From: Methanomassiliicoccus sp.
Lineage (GTDB): Archaea > Thermoplasmatota > Thermoplasmata > Methanomassiliicoccales > Methanomassiliicoccaceae
NCBI GenBank assembly: GCA_033485155.1
Contig: JAWQJJ010000001.1
Location: 496,001 to 560,000, forward strand
Length of the DNA stretch: 64,000 nucleotides
Reading direction: 5' to 3'
Of this stretch, positions 4,836-12,729 are shown one piece after another. Position numbers and translations under genes: made by a program. The notes under the pieces were generated by a model, which searched no databases, was not told the DNA's origin, and was given only the letters and a program-made list of their open reading frames with translations. Within the stretch, counting starts at the first letter, position 1. Each line of letters starts with the position of its first letter.

Positions 4836-4908
4836 TAAGTAGAGGACGCATCATACTCTCGAACAGATCACCTGCCGGGTGGTAGGGAGCAGGAGTGGCG
4901 TGGTGAAC

Positions 4909-5595
4909 ATGGCCGGAAAGAGCAACGGGAACAAGGGGACGCCGACCGACGCGTCCGGGGAGAAGAGCACGAGGTCCAGGATATTCGATGTCTCGGTCGA
5001 TCTCTTCGCCCAGAAAGGCTTCGACGCGGTCACCATGCAGGAGATCGCGGACGCGGTCGGTATCAAGAAAGCGTCGCTGTACTATCACTTCGAGAGCAAG
5101 GACCGGATCCTCGATGAGATCCTCAGCTACCCCATGCAAAGGCTGGGTGAGATCGGCGGGGAGGTGGGCGCGTACAACGAGCAGCTGATCGTCTCCGATG
5201 GCCTGGAAGGCTTTCTCGCCCGATCGCAGGAGGTCGTCCTCAGCTGGATGGAGACGCCCTACATCGAGAAGATAATGCGGATCATCTTCGTCGAGCTGTA
5301 CCATAACGACCGCATCAAGGAGTTCTTCGGAAAAGCCGTCCTCGATGCCGCCAGTGTGTTCTGGGAACAGAATTTCGCCATCATGATGAGGCACGGGCTG
5401 ATCACGGAGAAGGACCCCAGGGTGCTGATGGGCGAGTACCTTTCCTTCTACAGCCACACCTGGATGGAGTACTTCCTCTTCCGTTACGGGCGGACCGCAG
5501 GTAACTATCGACAGGAGTACGAGGATCAGTTGTCCGAGCACACCCGGTACATGGTGTGGGCCTTGAAGCCCGAGGCCGACGGCTGCAAGAGCTGA
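4909..5595 (+). CDS. TetR/AcrR-family transcriptional regulator
   Basis: 228 residues from the ATG at 4909; GTG codons at 4900 and 4903 are equally placed after a GGAG (4892-4895) and are alternative starts. The TetR DNA-binding domain is clear: TRSRIFDVSVDLFAQKGFDA, then VTMQEIADAVGIKKASLYYH with the recognition helix and the FESKDRIL that follows it. The C-terminal ligand domain is divergent. A perfect palindrome at 4816-4835 next to a TATA-like box suggests that it represses its own gene and possibly the operon that starts at 5711, 115 bases downstream. The ligand is unknown. Confidence 0.85.
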   Translation: MAGKSNGNKGTPTDASGEKSTRSRIFDVSVDLFAQKGFDAVTMQEIADAVGIKKASLYYHFESKDRILDEILSYPMQRLGEIGGEVGAYNEQLIVSDGLEGFLARSQEVVLSWMETPYIEKIMRIIFVELYHNDRIKEFFGKAVLDAASVFWEQNFAIMMRHGLITEKDPRVLMGEYLSFYSHTWMEYFLFRYGRTAGNYRQEYEDQLSEHTRYMVWALKPEADGCKS

Positions 5596-5710: not shown

Positions 5711-6949
5711 ATGAGCTCGGTCAGCGAGATCAAGCGTCCAAGGGTTCTGCTCTTCGGCTACAACGGCGCCAACAACACCGGCGCGGAGGCCAAGCTCCTC
5801 GCTACCATAGAGGAGATGCGCGCGCTGATACCTGACGCCGTGCTTACGGTCCCAAGCCTGGACGTCGATCGGCTGCGCCGTTATCTTCGAGAGGCCGATG
5901 ATCTGAGGATCGTCCGCGTGCCGACGACCTATCGACGCACGGTGCGCCGGCTTGTGAAGGAGAGCGACCTCGTCGTCCTGGTGGAGGGCTCGTGCTACAT
6001 CGAGACCTTCACCAAGGCGCTGCTCGACGCCTACCTGTGGGCCACGAGGTGCGCGCACGAGTTCGGAAAGCCCTGTGTGGCCTATGCCGTCGACTCCGGC
6101 CACTGCACCGAGGAGAGCGTGGATAAGGTGAGACGGGACGGGAGCTTGACCGATCTAATCATCATGCGCACTCGCACCGGGGCGGAGCGAATGCGGGCGT
6201 GGGGGGTCACTGCGCCGATCAAGGTCGCCGCTGACACCGCGCTGCTGATGAGGACGGACCCCCGGGACGCGGACATTCTGGAACGTTCATTGCCAGGAGG
6301 GACGGTGGGCATCGCGGCGGTGGATTTCTTCCTCTTCCCTGTCGTGCCCAGGCCGTGGGGCCGGCGGTCGAGGTGCTACAAGTGGCCCTACTACTTCGCG
6401 TGGAGCAGGGAGCGCCGTCGGGCGGCCGCCGAGCTGGCCCAGCGCTTCGCCGAGCTGGCGGACCGGTTCGTCAAGGAGCATGACCGGAACGTGGCGCTGC
6501 TGTGCATGGAGTCGGTCGACGATGACCTGGCCAAGGACATCCTCGCCCGCATGAAATGTCCTGAACGCGCCAGGATCTTCTCGGCCACGGAGCATAATGC
6601 CTCCCAGATGGCCTCGGTCCTGCGGTCCCTGGACCTCCTGGTCACCTCCCGCTACCACGCCGGAGCGCTCTCCCTCGAGGGGCATGTCCCCCAGATCGCC
6701 ATCGCCCACGACGTTCGCCTGGCGGACCTGTACGACGAGATCGGGATGAAGGATGAGTTCTTCTTCGAGCGCTCGGCCGAGGGCCTGTGGCCTCAGGTAA
6801 GGGCTAAGGCCGACCGCCTGCTGAACGATCCCGGGGAGGTGCGCGCCCAACTGGCCAAAGCGCACGAAGAGCATGTCATCCGGGCGAAGAGCGCCAGCGG
6901 ATGGGTCGCCGAGCTACTGAGGGAGAAGGGGTGGAGCGTGGGACCGTGA
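5711..6949 (+). CDS. Polysaccharide pyruvyl transferase family protein
   Basis: 412 residues from MSSVSEIKRPRVLLFGYNGA. The start at 5711 follows a strong GGGAGGGGA sequence with about 6 bases of spacing; an ATG at 5687 is an alternative. The N-terminal Rossmann-like segment (FGYNGANNTGAEA) and C-terminal SRYHAGALSLEGHVPQIAI match the CsaB/WcaK-like family, which adds pyruvyl ketals to cell-surface sugars. A Trp/Arg/Tyr-rich insert around residue 210-235 is unusual. It is the first gene of a four-gene operon with overlapping ends, so it may act on the same surface lipid or glycan as the downstream enzymes (inference). Confidence 0.8.
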   Translation: MSSVSEIKRPRVLLFGYNGANNTGAEAKLLATIEEMRALIPDAVLTVPSLDVDRLRRYLREADDLRIVRVPTTYRRTVRRLVKESDLVVLVEGSCYIETFTKALLDAYLWATRCAHEFGKPCVAYAVDSGHCTEESVDKVRRDGSLTDLIIMRTRTGAERMRAWGVTAPIKVAADTALLMRTDPRDADILERSLPGGTVGIAAVDFFLFPVVPRPWGRRSRCYKWPYYFAWSRERRRAAAELAQRFAELADRFVKEHDRNVALLCMESVDDDLAKDILARMKCPERARIFSATEHNASQMASVLRSLDLLVTSRYHAGALSLEGHVPQIAIAHDVRLADLYDEIGMKDEFFFERSAEGLWPQVRAKADRLLNDPGEVRAQLAKAHEEHVIRAKSASGWVAELLREKGWSVGP

Positions 6950-9684
6950 TCCTGCTCACCGGAGGTTCCGGCTTCATCGGCACCTACGTCGCCAGGTGGT
7001 TCCTGGCGAACTCCGGCCATAACATCACCGTGCTGGCGCGGGGGGGCGATGACCGGGAAGCGAGAGACCGGTTGGCCCGAGTTTGGGGGGACCGCCCGGA
7101 GGTCGCCAGCGCGCTCGGCTCGAGGGTCGAGGTGCTGGCCGGGGACGTGTGCAAGGAGGACCTGGGACTGGAGCCATCGAGGTACGCGGAGCTGGCCCGG
7201 CAGGTGGACATCATCGTCCACTGCGCCGCCGACATCCGCCTCCACGCTCCGCTGGACGAGCTGAGGGAGACCAACGTCAACGGGACCCGGAACGTCCTCA
7301 AGCTCGCCTTCGCCGTCCACCGTGACCACGGGCTGAAGCGCTTCGCGCACGTTTCCACCGCCTACGTCGCCGGGGGGCGGAGGGGCGCGGTGCGAGAGGA
7401 CGAGCTCACAGATCAATACGGCTTCCTGAGCAACTACGAGCGGAGCAAGTACGAAGCCGAAACGGTCGTCCGCGGGGCGATGGACGAACTGCCGATCTCC
7501 ATCTTCCGCCCGGGCATGGTCGTCGGGGCCTCGGACGACGGCTATGTGAGAACTTTCAACACGCTGTACTATCCCCTGCGCCTCTACCTCGCCGGCAAGG
7601 TCAAGGTGCTTCCCATATCCCCCTCCCAGCGGGTGAACCTCGTCCCCGTGGATCACGTTGCCGAAATGATCGCCCGCCTTTCCCTCGATCCCCGGGCGGA
7701 AGGGAGGACCTTCCATGCCGTGGGCGATCCGGCGACGCTGCCGACCGTGAGGGAGCTCGTCAATGCCACCCGTTCCTGGGCCCTTGAGCATCTTGGGGTG
7801 TCCCTCCCCCGTCCCGTCTACCTGCCGATACTCCAGGGCACGGGGGCCAAAGGGCCGGCCAAGGACCTCGCTCCCCTGGCCGGCTACCTGCAGGAGCGGC
7901 GGGAGTTCCTTAGGACGAACGCGGACGACCTCCTCGGCCACTGCCCGGTGGACTGGCATCTCCTGCTCCCGAAGCTGCTGGAGTTCGGGACCTACACCGG
8001 GTTCCTGCACCGCAGTGACCGGACCGTGCACGAGCAGGTCTTGTTCCGCCTGACCAGCAAGCGGAGGCCGGTGCGGATGTTCGACATTGTGGACGGCGAG
8101 ACCAGGGAGCGTCCCGCCGCCGAGGTCCGGGGGGACATGCTGCGGGCGGCAGCTGCCCTGCACGAGATGGGCATCGGCAAGGGCGACCGGGTGGCTATCG
8201 TCGGCGCGAACAGCACTCGGTACCTGACCCTCGATGTGGCCATCGGCATGGTGGGCGGAATCAGCGTTCCCCTTTACTACACCTCCCCGCCCCGGGAGCT
8301 GGACGAGCAGGTCGCCAGCAGCGGGGCCCGCCTCCTGCTGATCGGTTCAGGGCAGGTGCTCAAAAGAGCGCGCGAGATGCAGACCTCTGTTCCCATGATC
8401 TCGTTCTGCCGTTCGGTGCCCGAGGAAATGAGATCCCGGGCCCTATCTTGGGAGGAATTCCTCGACCGGGGCGTTGATGAGGAAAGGGCACGCTCCCCGG
8501 CGGGGCTGGGGGACATCGCCACGCTGCGGTACACCTCAAGCACCACCGGTCCGGCCAAGGGTGTGCTGTTCGATCACGATAACCTGCGGTACATGGCCGA
8601 ATCCACCGCCTCCCTGCCGCCGTGGGAGGCGCGCAACTCTCAGGTCGTTTACCTATCGTTCCTGCCCATGAACCACGTGGTCGAGGGCATCCTGGCGACC
8701 TACTCGCCGTTCTACGCTCCGGCGGCCGTCGACCTCTACTTCCTCGAGGAGTTCAGGGAGCTGCGGAACGCACTTCCCAAGGTGCGGCCCACCGTCTTCT
8801 TCTCCGTACCCCGCTTCTTCGAGAAGTTGCACTCTGGCCTGGTCGACAACCCCAACGCCATGAGGGTGATGGCAAGGCCATCCAAGCCGACCTCCAAGCT
8901 CCTGGCGTCGGCGATCGGGAGGCAGGCCCTGAGGCGTGCAGGACTGGACCGCTGTGCCTACCTGATCTCCGGCTCGGGGGTCATGAGCCCGGCGATACTG
9001 CGGGACCTCCGGGTGCTGGGCATCGAGGTGCACAACGCCTACGGCCTGACCGAGGCACCGCTGGTCACAATCAACCGCCGGGGATGCAACGTCATCGGCA
9101 CGGTCGGCACACCGCTGCCCAGGACGGAGGTCGCCATCGCCGAGGACGGCGAGGTGCTGGTCCGCGGACCCCAGGTCACCAGGGGCTATGACGGCCTCGA
9201 GGAGGATCCGTTCCACGACGGCTGGCTGCTCACCGGCGATACCGGGCACATTGCCGACGACGGTAGCCTCGTACTTCAGGGTCGGAAGAAGGAGCTGATC
9301 AAGACCGCCTACGGCAAGTACGTCAACCCTCTGAAGGTGGAGACGATGATGCGTTCTCTTCCCGGAGTGGAGGAGGCGATGGTGGTCGGCGAGGGCCGCC
9401 CGTACGGGGTCGCCCTGCTGTGGGTCGGGGGACGCCCGGCGGTGGACGACATCGATGCTGCCATCGTCAGCATGAACGAGCAACTGGCACGCCCCGAGCA
9501 GATCAGGGCCTGGGCCGTGCTACCCAACGACCTGTCCGTGGAGAGGGGCGAGCTGACTGCCAACATGAAGCTCCGGAGGCCTAGGCTGGTCCTGCGGTAC
9601 CAGCCGGTGATCGAGTCGCTGTACTCGGGCCAGTCGTCGGCACCAGAGGCGCTGCACGTGGGTCGGGCGGGGAGGGAGACATGA
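6931..9684 (+). CDS. Thioester-reductase-like SDR domain fused to AMP-dependent acyl ligase
   Basis: About 917 residues from the GTG at 6931, which follows GGGAG and overlaps the upstream gene by 19 bases. The N-terminal part (about 1-380) is an extended SDR of the fatty acyl/thioester reductase type: TGGSGFIGTYVARWF nucleotide-binding motif, HVSTAYVAGG, and YERSKYEAE with the catalytic Tyr and Lys. The C-terminal part is an adenylating enzyme: LRYTSSTTGPAKGV (P-loop), NAYGLTE, and GWLLTGDTGHI. The order is reductase then ligase, the reverse of carboxylic acid reductases, and there is no carrier-protein domain. It probably activates and reduces a long-chain acid, but the substrate is unknown. 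Confidence 0.82.
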   Translation: MERGTVILLTGGSGFIGTYVARWFLANSGHNITVLARGGDDREARDRLARVWGDRPEVASALGSRVEVLAGDVCKEDLGLEPSRYAELARQVDIIVHCAADIRLHAPLDELRETNVNGTRNVLKLAFAVHRDHGLKRFAHVSTAYVAGGRRGAVREDELTDQYGFLSNYERSKYEAETVVRGAMDELPISIFRPGMVVGASDDGYVRTFNTLYYPLRLYLAGKVKVLPISPSQRVNLVPVDHVAEMIARLSLDPRAEGRTFHAVGDPATLPTVRELVNATRSWALEHLGVSLPRPVYLPILQGTGAKGPAKDLAPLAGYLQERREFLRTNADDLLGHCPVDWHLLLPKLLEFGTYTGFLHRSDRTVHEQVLFRLTSKRRPVRMFDIVDGETRERPAAEVRGDMLRAAAALHEMGIGKGDRVAIVGANSTRYLTLDVAIGMVGGISVPLYYTSPPRELDEQVASSGARLLLIGSGQVLKRAREMQTSVPMISFCRSVPEEMRSRALSWEEFLDRGVDEERARSPAGLGDIATLRYTSSTTGPAKGVLFDHDNLRYMAESTASLPPWEARNSQVVYLSFLPMNHVVEGILATYSPFYAPAAVDLYFLEEFRELRNALPKVRPTVFFSVPRFFEKLHSGLVDNPNAMRVMARPSKPTSKLLASAIGRQALRRAGLDRCAYLISGSGVMSPAILRDLRVLGIEVHNAYGLTEAPLVTINRRGCNVIGTVGTPLPRTEVAIAEDGEVLVRGPQVTRGYDGLEEDPFHDGWLLTGDTGHIADDGSLVLQGRKKELIKTAYGKYVNPLKVETMMRSLPGVEEAMVVGEGRPYGVALLWVGGRPAVDDIDAAIVSMNEQLARPEQIRAWAVLPNDLSVERGELTANMKLRRPRLVLRYQPVIESLYSGQSSAPEALHVGRAGRET

Positions 9685-10277
9685 GCCTGCGGCTGACCAT
9701 CGCCTCGCGGTGGATGCCCCGCTTCCTCATGTCACGGGAGGTCCAGAGGATCGAAGCGAGGACGAACGCCACGCTGGACGCCCTTCTTCGGAGCGCCGGT
9801 TCCCATCCGCCCGAGGGCACCAAGGCCCGAGCAAAGGACCTGGAGGGCCACCGGGCGGCCATGGCCGGAGGACACGAGATCAGAGTGCGGGCGCTGATCG
9901 ACGCCCTGGGCCGGGAGGAGGCGATCCGTGCCGCCCGGAGTGCGCTGAACGACACCGGCATGGAACTGGGACGGGAGGCGAAGGCGAGCCTCGGGGTCGG
10001 CGGTTCCTCCGAGGACCTCATGCGAGCGGCGGCGGTGATGTACCGCATCCTGGGCATCGAATTCTCGGTCCTCGACACCCCGGACGGACGACGGATGGCG
10101 GTCCGCCGGTGCGCCCTCTCCCAGGTATATTCCCATGATGCATGCCTGATGCTCAGCGCCGTGGACGAGGGGGTGGTGAGCGGGCTGAACCCGATGGCGT
10201 CGATGCGGTTCACCGAGCGCATGACCGGGGGCGCCCCGTGCTGCCTGGCATCGATAACGTTGAAGGAGGGGACATGA
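9681..10277 (+). CDS. L-2-amino-thiazoline-4-carboxylic acid hydrolase-like protein
   Basis: 198 residues; the ATG overlaps the previous stop codon (ATGA), showing translational coupling. The C-terminal part, with SALNDTG, GIEFSVLD and a final MTGGAPCCLASITLKEG segment, resembles the L-2-ATC hydrolase-like family, whose members often sit beside lipid or natural-product genes. The N-terminus (MSLRLTIASRWMPRFLMS) is amphipathic or hydrophobic. True ATC hydrolysis is not implied; most family members are uncharacterised. Context ties it to the reductase-ligase fusion and the GMC oxidoreductase. Confidence 0.55.
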   Translation: MSLRLTIASRWMPRFLMSREVQRIEARTNATLDALLRSAGSHPPEGTKARAKDLEGHRAAMAGGHEIRVRALIDALGREEAIRAARSALNDTGMELGREAKASLGVGGSSEDLMRAAAVMYRILGIEFSVLDTPDGRRMAVRRCALSQVYSHDACLMLSAVDEGVVSGLNPMASMRFTERMTGGAPCCLASITLKEGT

Positions 10278-11572
10278 AGGCCATCGTGGTCGGGTCGGGA
10301 GCGGGCGGAGCGACCGCCGCCCGGGAGCTGTCAAGAACGGGCGCGGAGGTCGTGGTGCTGGAGGCCGGCGAGCGGTTCAAGCCGTTCACCCGACTGGTGG
10401 GGTGGACCGAACCCCTCAGGCGTGCTGGCCTGCTGGGCGGCGAGGCTAACGTCGAGAGGTTCATTTCCGCCTACCGAACCACGCGGTCGAGCAAGGAGCT
10501 GCTGCTGGTGCGGGGCATGGCCGTCGGCGGATGCTCGGTGGTCTCCTGCGGCAACCTGGTGCGGGCGGAGGCGGGACTGAAGGAGATCGGTCTGGACCTC
10601 TCGCCGGAGTACGAGAGCCTCGAGCGTCAGATCGGCATCGCGACGCTTCCCCGGGAGCGCTGGCGACCGACCACCCAGCGGATGTTCGACGCGGCCTCGG
10701 AGATGGGCCTGGACCCCCGCCCGACCCCCAAGGGGCTGGACATCTCCCGGTGCATCTCCTGCGGGCTGTGCGAGGTCGGCTGTCCCACCGGCGCGAGATG
10801 GGACTCCCGCCGGTTCCTGGACGAGGCCGCAAGATGGGGATGCCGGGTGCAAACCGGATCGGCGGTCAAGCAGGTCTTGGTGGAGGGCGAAAGAGCGGTC
10901 GGCGTGCGGGCGGAGGTGGACGGCCGGATGAGCACCATGAAGGCGGACGTCGTGGTCCTCGCCGCCGGGGGGATAGGCACCGCCCAGATCCTCAGGGCCT
11001 CGGGTATCGCCCCCAGCGATACGTTGTGGGCCGATCTCGTCCTCACCGTGGGTGGCAGGAGCAAGGCCGCGAGGCAGCTCGAGGAGCCGCCCATGGCCTG
11101 GTTCGCCCAGCGGGAAAGGCACATCATCTCACCGTACGTCGACGTCCTCTCGCACTGGTTCCACCGTCCCTGGAGAAACGTCGGCCTCCAGGACCGAGTA
11201 GGGGTAATGGTCAAGCTGGCCGAGTCCGCGAACGGCAGGGTACTGGAAGACGGCAGGGTGGAGAAGCCGGTGAGCGCGGAGGACCAGTCATACCTGCGCC
11301 GGGCCGCGGACGAGGTGAAGGATATGATGGGACGCGCCGGCGTGGAGGAACCCTTCATCAACGGCATATTGCACGGCGGTCATCTCGGGGGCACGGTGCC
11401 CCTGCGTCGCGAGGACGTCAGCGGCATGCGTCCATCATACCTTCCGGAGGGACTGTGGGTGGCCGATCTATCTCTTCTCCCCAGATCGCAGGGTCTGCCC
11501 ACCATGCTGACCACCGCCGCCCTGGCCCTGCGAGTGGCCAGGAGCATTCAGCCGGAAAGCGGTCGAACATAG
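10274..11572 (+). CDS. GMC-type FAD oxidoreductase with 4Fe-4S motif
   Basis: 432 residues from MKAIVVGSGAGGATAARELS, a Rossmann FAD-binding motif; the ATG again overlaps the previous stop (ATGA). A ferredoxin-like cluster CISCGLCEVGC lies near residue 160, and the C-terminus has GILHGGHLGGTVPLR and LWVADLSLLPRSQGLPTMLT, which matches the GMC C-terminal domain with its catalytic His. The Fe-S motif is found in anaerobic GMC relatives that pass electrons to ferredoxin rather than oxygen. It would oxidise an alcohol or reduce a double bond of the operon product (inference). A hairpin followed by T residues at 11573-11602 ends the operon. Confidence 0.8.
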   Translation: MKAIVVGSGAGGATAARELSRTGAEVVVLEAGERFKPFTRLVGWTEPLRRAGLLGGEANVERFISAYRTTRSSKELLLVRGMAVGGCSVVSCGNLVRAEAGLKEIGLDLSPEYESLERQIGIATLPRERWRPTTQRMFDAASEMGLDPRPTPKGLDISRCISCGLCEVGCPTGARWDSRRFLDEAARWGCRVQTGSAVKQVLVEGERAVGVRAEVDGRMSTMKADVVVLAAGGIGTAQILRASGIAPSDTLWADLVLTVGGRSKAARQLEEPPMAWFAQRERHIISPYVDVLSHWFHRPWRNVGLQDRVGVMVKLAESANGRVLEDGRVEKPVSAEDQSYLRRAADEVKDMMGRAGVEEPFINGILHGGHLGGTVPLRREDVSGMRPSYLPEGLWVADLSLLPRSQGLPTMLTTAALALRVARSIQPESGRT

Positions 11573-11805: not shown

Positions 11806-12729
11806 TTAGGCGTCCAGATAGAATATGTCGGTGACGTTCTCGCCCGAATCAGTGAGCCTCAGCTCGCTGCCCCGGCCGTTCTTCCCGTCGACCCAGCCCT
11901 GCCTGATCCATCCGTCGATAAAGTGCCGGGAATAGTACATCTTCTCCGCCTGGGCCAGTTTATCTCGCCGGGAGTCCGTAGCCTTGAACTTCTCCATCGC
12001 CTCCCCATCATAGGTCCACACCCCGGCCTCCTTGAGATCCTGGATCATGGCGGCATACTTGGTGGACAGCTTGTTCTCCCTCCTGATCCGGAACCTCCTC
12101 AGGGCGATCACGAGATCCCGGGGCGGAGGGCTGATGCGGAACGAGGGCAGCTCCACCGGATCGGTGAGCTCTGTCTTTTTGCTGAACTGTATATATTGCG
12201 AGTGGTACAGCTCGTCCAATTGGGTCACGTAGTTCTGGTTGAGCTGGGAGTGCACGATGAACGGCTTGACTCCGTCGACCATCATCGACGCCACCGTCGC
12301 CGCGGCCACGTACTCCATCGTCCCTGACGAAAGATTGACATAGACGTCGTTGCCCAAACCCCGCTCCCTGGACATGATCGACATCAGCTCGCCCATCACC
12401 TTCTTGAACTGATAGACGTCGATCCTCCGCACCACGATGTCGTCGGCCTCGAACCCGATGTTGTGGAGCCGTTTGACGATCTCATCGTAGAAATCACTGA
12501 ACACCGAACATCTCCTGTTCGACCCAATGCCGTTCCAGCAGATGAGGTAGATCTTCTCGGCCCTGAGGTCCCCTATGGGCTTAACCACCTTCAGGGTCTC
12601 GTAGCTCATGCAGCTGATTACCACCCTTAGGCGCGGCGATATGCTCGGTCCGTCAAGACCGTTGATGGCCGACAAGCCTTTTTTCGAAGCCTTGTTGGAA
12701 TCGGTGCATGGGCTAGACTTATGCCTCAT
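11806..12729 (-). CDS. HFX_2341/DUF6293-like regulator: CARF-like Rossmann domain plus winged helix
   Basis: 307 residues. From about residue 33 (LRVVISCMSYETLKVVKPIG) the protein follows a Rossmann-like pattern: AEKIYLICWNG, DDIVVRRIDVYQFKKVMGEL, and NDVYVNLSSGTMEYVAAATVASMM, a glycine/serine loop of the type seen in CARF domains. The C-terminal 90 residues form a winged helix (YYSRHFIDGWIRQGWVDG, ELRLTDSGENV). This layout is that of archaeal DUF6293 proteins, related to Csa3-type CRISPR regulators. No CRISPR array or cas gene is in the window, so its ligand and targets are open. The first 30 residues look dispensable; a GTG near residue 35 is an alternative start. Confidence 0.65.
   Translation of the reverse strand: MRHKSSPCTDSNKASKKGLSAINGLDGPSISPRLRVVISCMSYETLKVVKPIGDLRAEKIYLICWNGIGSNRRCSVFSDFYDEIVKRLHNIGFEADDIVVRRIDVYQFKKVMGELMSIMSRERGLGNDVYVNLSSGTMEYVAAATVASMMVDGVKPFIVHSQLNQNYVTQLDELYHSQYIQFSKKTELTDPVELPSFRISPPPRDLVIALRRFRIRRENKLSTKYAAMIQDLKEAGVWTYDGEAMEKFKATDSRRDKLAQAEKMYYSRHFIDGWIRQGWVDGKNGRGSELRLTDSGENVTDIFYLDA

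Follow-up and report, generated by a model that had tools for sequence, protein, structure and literature searches.

Four kinds of described protein, namely GMC oxidoreductases, carboxylic acid reductases, polysaccharide pyruvyl transferases and V4R-fold proteins, offer the closest counterparts of the genes considered here. In GMC oxidoreductases, the usual catalytic pair is a histidine plus an asparagine or a histidine. Carboxylic acid reductases (NF041592; PDB 5msc/5msp) combine an adenylating and a thioester-reductase domain in a single protein, in the order A-T-R, with a phosphopantetheine carrier. The members of the pyruvyl transferase family PF04230 that have been characterised so far use sugar acceptors; one of these, CsaB, binds PEP through R148, R306, H308 and K328, and a K328R variant retains activity (PMC10435577). 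Finally, the ATC_hydrolase, V4R and HNOB families have already been linked via three conserved cysteines (PMC5847659), and the zinc site of the V4R-type sensor DmpR is built from three cysteines and one glutamate (PMC7264223).

Organisation and distribution of the cassette

The window analysed is a stretch of 64,000 nucleotides (G000:C1:496001-560000) from the 2.8 Mb genome of a Methanomassiliicoccus species. It carries four consecutive genes, here called PyvT, RedLig, ATCh and GMC-FeS, which lie with their immediate neighbours as follows:

4879..5595, plus strand: TetR-family regulator, 115 bases upstream of the cassette and in the same direction
5711..6949, plus strand: PyvT, PS_pyruv_trans (PF04230, 62.3 bits against a cut-off of 25.3)
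6931..9684, plus strand: RedLig, a fusion of NAD_binding_4 and AMP-binding domains (193 and 191 bits)
9681..10277, plus strand: ATCh, PF14196 'ATC_hydrolase' (31.0 bits against a cut-off of 28.1, barely above it)
10274..11572, plus strand: GMC-FeS, GMC_oxred_N (81.1 bits against 23) plus Fer4
11806-12729, minus strand: HFX_2341/DUF6293-family protein, directly downstream of the cassette

The open frames and domains bear out the first-pass annotation of this DNA, which had described the same four genes with overlaps of 19, 4 and 4 bases at the PyvT/RedLig, RedLig/ATCh and ATCh/GMC junctions. The 19-base figure presumes that RedLig starts at the GTG at 6931; the alternative ATG at 6901 would give 49. 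Scans of the window for tRNAs and Rfam families returned no matches. The HFX_2341/DUF6293-family neighbour is not conserved with the cassette, and no other gene is conserved in the flanks of the block across loci. A TetR gene also adjoins the cassette at one other locus (L041), and one lies about 1.9 kb upstream at another (L191). It probably regulates the cassette, and we count it outside the core because it is missing from most of the other loci.

The complete set of four genes is present at 23 loci, the window among them, although in a few of these PyvT is cut by a contig end or RedLig is split; 7 further loci, at contig ends, hold three of the four. Gene order is altered at one locus only (L060), and the 4-base overlaps recur across phyla. 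The hosts comprise Methanomassiliicoccales, other Thermoplasmatota, Methanobacteriota and bacterial metagenome-assembled genomes (MAGs) of Bipolaricaulota, KSB1 and Spirochaetota, while Thermoproteota MAGs carry parts of the cassette. When 61 genomes of the taxonomic order were searched with RedLig, 14 of them, counting the window's own, gave full-strength matches; the 19 genomes sampled from one family (f2) gave no such match. The other 13 matching genomes have the cassette neighbours in the same order, except for genes lost to contig ends. Within the taxonomic order, identity to the window's copy ranges from about 34% to 75%, varying by gene.

Among named genomes, carriers of the block close to the window's host are Methanomassiliicoccus and Methanomassiliicoccales MAGs. 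Relatives in named genomes were recovered by an alignment scan, a single-protein scan having returned none; with the GMC alignment, this identified MAGs labelled Methanobacteriaceae, Euryarchaeota, Bathyarchaeota, Thermotoga, Acetothermia, KSB1 and Spirochaetales, most of which hold the four-gene block. The Thermotoga label is doubtful, since this MAG clusters with the Acetothermia one in both the phylum search and the trees. In samples of the respective phyla, the cassette-type GMC protein was present in 8 of 152 genomes for the Methanobacteriaceae MAG (one of the eight being broken), 6 of 390 for Thermoplasmatota, 3 of 100 for Acetothermia, 2 of 250 for Bathyarchaeota, 1 of 198 for Spirochaetales and 1 of 82 for KSB1, the last with nine weaker relatives besides. 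Collections of plasmids and viruses yielded no cassette, only distant superfamily matches.

The bacterial records are MAGs, and some could be mis-binned single contigs. The Bipolaricaulota copies are the firmest of them, occurring in three genomes with common flanking genes. Two methanogen copies, each within a large contig (of 1.52 Mb and 0.54 Mb respectively), have a shared genomic setting, which argues against contamination. Three candidates were set aside: a Sphingobium plasmid ligase/oxidoreductase, considered as a relative of RedLig, has an unrelated gene neighbourhood; an internal TGA in the PyvT gene of two Bipolaricaulota copies, considered as a selenocysteine codon, is a normal stop; and distant Fe-S GMC proteins of Spirochaetota were not kept as members of the system, as they come without ATCh.

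We then asked how the four genes have been inherited. In a tree of three of the proteins over 22 loci, a single bacterial clade is rejected (p-AU 0.007), as is a single clade of Methanomassiliicoccales (p-AU 0.009), with the caution that base composition varies between rows and that one sequence (L071) forms a long branch. The cassette is horizontally mobile, having spread to further archaea and to several phyla of bacteria. Pairwise divergences among the four proteins correlate with r of 0.81-0.95 over 16 loci (PyvT values calculated without truncated copies), which serves as supporting evidence only, given that the common ancestry of the hosts contributes to r. Furthermore, in one methanogen (G1051; L189:8578-10762) PyvT, RedLig and most of ATCh have been deleted, and the GMC remnant is frameshifted; the flanks match those of relatives at about 92%, and the sister loci L187 and L188 are intact at the same site. 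For the frameshift itself, there is some chance of an assembly error.

It is near certain that the four genes form a functional unit, as had been proposed from the overlaps in the window. Conservation of the block, recurring overlaps, co-divergence and co-loss all argue for this, and the circumstance that would have spoken against it, separation of the genes in relatives, was looked for and the block proved conserved. That four unrelated genes lie side by side by chance has a negligible probability: the dissimilarity of the families is the single point found for it, against an order that is conserved, 4-base overlaps found again in different phyla, and genes that diverge and disappear together.

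Part of the unit also occurs in a second context. In the KSB1 phylum, a different operon (L100-L108, e.g. L101:6139-9585) encodes a radical SAM/SPASM protein, a hydrophobic protein of about 133 amino acids, ATCh and an Fe-S GMC protein. Its junctions overlap, and the ATCh-GMC overlap is the same 4 bases as in the cassette, but the radical SAM/SPASM and small hydrophobic proteins take the place of PyvT and RedLig. We found no description of this radical SAM-ATCh-GMC operon. At the loci examined ATCh always adjoins an Fe-S GMC flavoprotein, and their pairing in KSB1 without the other two genes identifies ATCh-GMC as a smaller core, making a complex or a shared substrate likely.

The four proteins and their closest relatives

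RedLig resembles carboxylic acid reductases, the closest solved relatives of both of its halves, in having adenylating and thioester-reductase domains in one protein with the catalytic residues present. Its N-terminal half is a thioester reductase of the SDR type (Ser/Thr142-143, Tyr169, Lys173) and its C-terminal half an adenylating acyl ligase (P-loop YTSSTTG, TGD, catalytic Lys880), and the catalytic motifs of both are invariant across copies. In contrast to the A-T-R arrangement, however, the reductase precedes the ligase and there is no carrier, no PP-binding match having been obtained in RedLig. The best named matches are FadD11, carboxylic acid reductase and thioester reductase; against the carboxylic acid reductase model RedLig scores 194.7 bits, with a cut-off of 1300.

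PyvT is a divergent protein of the polysaccharide pyruvyl transferase family with a predicted GT-B fold (model pLDDT 92). It resembles CsaB and Pvg1p in exceeding the PF04230 cut-off and in retaining the PEP-site residues: CsaB R148, R306 and H308 correspond to R153, R314 and H316, invariant in 19 sequences, and the position of K328 is taken by R336 in the 19 sequences (register set via alignment with a canonical PF04230 paralogue in the same genome). It differs from them at the acceptor site, where the CsaB aromatics Y14 and F16 are replaced by N18 and A20, invariant in all 19 aligned copies (register set by motif); in a unique subfamily insert, PVVxRxxGRRxxCYxWPYY at residues ~210-228, also invariant; and in scoring 71.8 bits against the CsaB model TIGR03609, far under its equivalog cut-off of 213.1. 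A sequence search of the PDB gave no match, and Foldseek searches with the model returned epimerases and glycosyltransferases as top matches. Given this ranking and the distance from CsaB, transfer of a group other than pyruvyl is possible. The paralogue used for the register (L205, G000:C2:196150-197079) is a second, canonical pyruvyl transferase of the same genome, scoring 142 bits.

The GMC-FeS protein shares GMC_oxred_N, the FAD motif and the HxxGT-motif histidine (H370) with MftG and other GMC oxidoreductases, and MftG models are its top NCBIfam names. It nevertheless reaches 68.1 bits where the MftG equivalog cut-off is 387.45, has ATCh as a partner and carries an inserted, invariant 4Fe-4S motif, C160-x2-C163-x2-C166-x3-C170. 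In addition, the Asn/His of the usual catalytic pair is replaced, the second position being Leu, Phe, Met or Ser in cassette copies; in several KSB1 copies it is Asn.

As to ATCh, the description 'ATC-hydrolase-like' reflects a genuine match, although a marginal one, to PF14196, and is misleading as a statement of function, for which hydrolysis of L-2-amino-thiazoline-4-carboxylate would be the defining activity. The predicted structure (pLDDT 95) has instead a V4R/TRAPP (Bet3) fold. The best Foldseek matches are TRAPPC3 with bound palmitate and PoxR, which senses phenol (E 8.5e-5 to 1e-3), with 6aq3 on top (TM 0.57-0.65). At the sequence level, PF14196 alone recurs (20 of 31 homologues at E<=0.01); the V4R family PF02830 has no match among the homologues, and a PDB sequence search with ATCh gave nothing significant. 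C144, C155, D162 and C188 are invariant and make up a candidate metal site, by analogy with the three cysteines and acidic residue of the DmpR zinc site. Unlike the PoxR-MopR-DmpR sensory domains and Bet3, ATCh is neither fused to a regulator nor a component of a vesicle complex. Structure prediction thus gives a lipid-binding V4R/Bet3 fold to a family whose annotation is that of a hydrolase, and this family is linked to an uncharacterised lineage of Fe-S GMC flavoproteins.

Candidate functions of the cassette

The product of the cassette is probably a hydrophobic molecule, modified and so far undescribed. More specifically, and tentatively, we favour a self-contained, mobile biosynthetic cassette for such a compound in anaerobes, with a chemistry suggested by the protein families; the sequence of reactions, their substrates and the end product are all inferred. 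The ligase domain of RedLig would adenylate a hydrophobic, probably long-chain or isoprenoid, carboxylic acid and hand it to CoA or another thiol, after which the reductase domain would use NAD(P)H to reduce the thioester, yielding either an aldehyde or an alcohol. With the V4R-fold ATCh as its substrate-binding partner, the Fe-S GMC protein may further oxidise or reduce the hydrophobic intermediate and exchange electrons via its 4Fe-4S centre, likely with ferredoxin. Finally, PyvT would use PEP to pyruvylate a hydroxyl or diol, which would make the product acidic. A more elaborate version, which we consider doubtful, has ATCh as a dedicated carrier of intermediates, possibly via an invariant cysteine, that replaces the carrier domain of carboxylic acid reductases and presents the substrate to the Fe-S flavoenzyme, the product being an acidic pyruvylated lipid or hydrophobic metabolite common to archaea and bacteria.

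The lipid-binding fold of ATCh, and a ligase nearest to long-chain acyl ligases and carboxylic acid reductases, are compatible with the earlier suggestion of a modified surface lipid or natural product; a location at the surface found no support. It had also been stated that no described pathway has this set of genes, and indeed we found no published description of it in the open-access literature, subscription journals lying outside this scope. A common lipid substrate is not obvious, because the membrane lipids of the hosts differ (isoprenoid ethers versus acyl lipids). A unit that crosses the boundary between archaea and bacteria suggests that its product benefits anaerobes whose membranes are very unlike each other, and the cassette offers a concrete target in the search for a new lipid or metabolite.

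Several other functions deserve consideration. The sugar acceptors of characterised PF04230 members (PMC10435577), together with the GT-B fold and retained PEP-binding residues of PyvT, would suit decoration of a surface glycan, in which PyvT acts on a surface sugar or a lipid-linked one and its three partners supply or modify an acyl or aldehyde group of this glycan. Yet the flanks of the block lack conserved glycosyltransferase, flippase or polymer genes, none of the 19 aligned PyvT copies has the CsaB acceptor aromatics, and ATCh and the GMC protein do without PyvT in KSB1 bacteria, so that we regard this reading as unlikely, if worth keeping in mind. Rather less probable still is a catabolic or detoxifying operon under TetR control, with the ligase and flavoprotein converting a hydrophobic environmental compound that PyvT then conjugates. 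The TetR genes at or near three loci and the patchy, transferred distribution, with its gap in family f2, fit such a role; however, a thioester reductase and a PEP-consuming transferase point in the anabolic direction, the flanks show no conserved gene for uptake, beta-oxidation or ring cleavage, and most loci have no TetR gene.

Two further proposals concern hydrocarbons and redox cofactors. The reductase-ligase fusion, and the presence of an acyl-ACP-reductase-like gene beside a relative of the GMC protein, might indicate a hydrocarbon or wax route in which the aldehyde from RedLig leads to a neutral storage lipid or hydrocarbon and PyvT has a side role. This seems improbable to us, as the block includes no wax synthase, decarbonylase or Ole genes and PyvT is found at nearly every complete locus. 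Slightly more remote is a redox cofactor system resembling mycofactocin, with the GMC protein reoxidising a small carrier that the products of the other genes would make: the MftG names, and the joining of ATCh-GMC in KSB1 to a radical SAM/SPASM protein that has relatives among cofactor-maturation enzymes, speak for it, whereas the score far below the MftG cut-off, the lack of a precursor peptide or MftA-F counterpart adjoining the block and the lack of a radical SAM gene in the four-gene cassette speak against it. Ole-type hydrocarbon synthesis and mycofactocin were set aside, their partner genes being missing.

Relatives of the Fe-S GMC protein

Fe-S GMC proteins related to that of the cassette are found in a range of other gene neighbourhoods. 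A shorter form (L194-L199, e.g. L199:3904-7037) is present in 139 of 152 Methanobacteriota genomes, cassette copies being counted in, and at L198 and L199 it follows a homocysteine-biosynthesis gene (PF01837) and a NIL/ferredoxin gene. At two loci in the Bathyarchaeota phylum (L202:2590-8127 and L203), a relative lies 3' of the large and small subunits of an aconitase-family enzyme and also downstream of a thiamine-diphosphate enzyme. At four loci in the Spirochaetota phylum (L132, L137, L141 and L144), relatives adjoin genes for 2-hydroxyacyl-CoA dehydratase and for a BcrAD/BadFG-type activator. Judging by these neighbours, lipids need not be the substrates of this flavoprotein family.

Genes resembling CrtI and carotenoid isomerases are located upstream in Bipolaricaulota and at the KSB1 locus L101, near a GMC relative at L138, and also beside an Fe-S GMC relative at L064. 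At L130:1354-5154, an Fe-S GMC relative stands in a row with polyketide-cyclase-like, acyl-ACP-reductase-like and methanethiol-methyltransferase-like membrane proteins. The CrtI-like and acyl-ACP-reductase-like neighbours point to hydrophobic substrates, an indication that concerns these relatives rather than the operon of the window.
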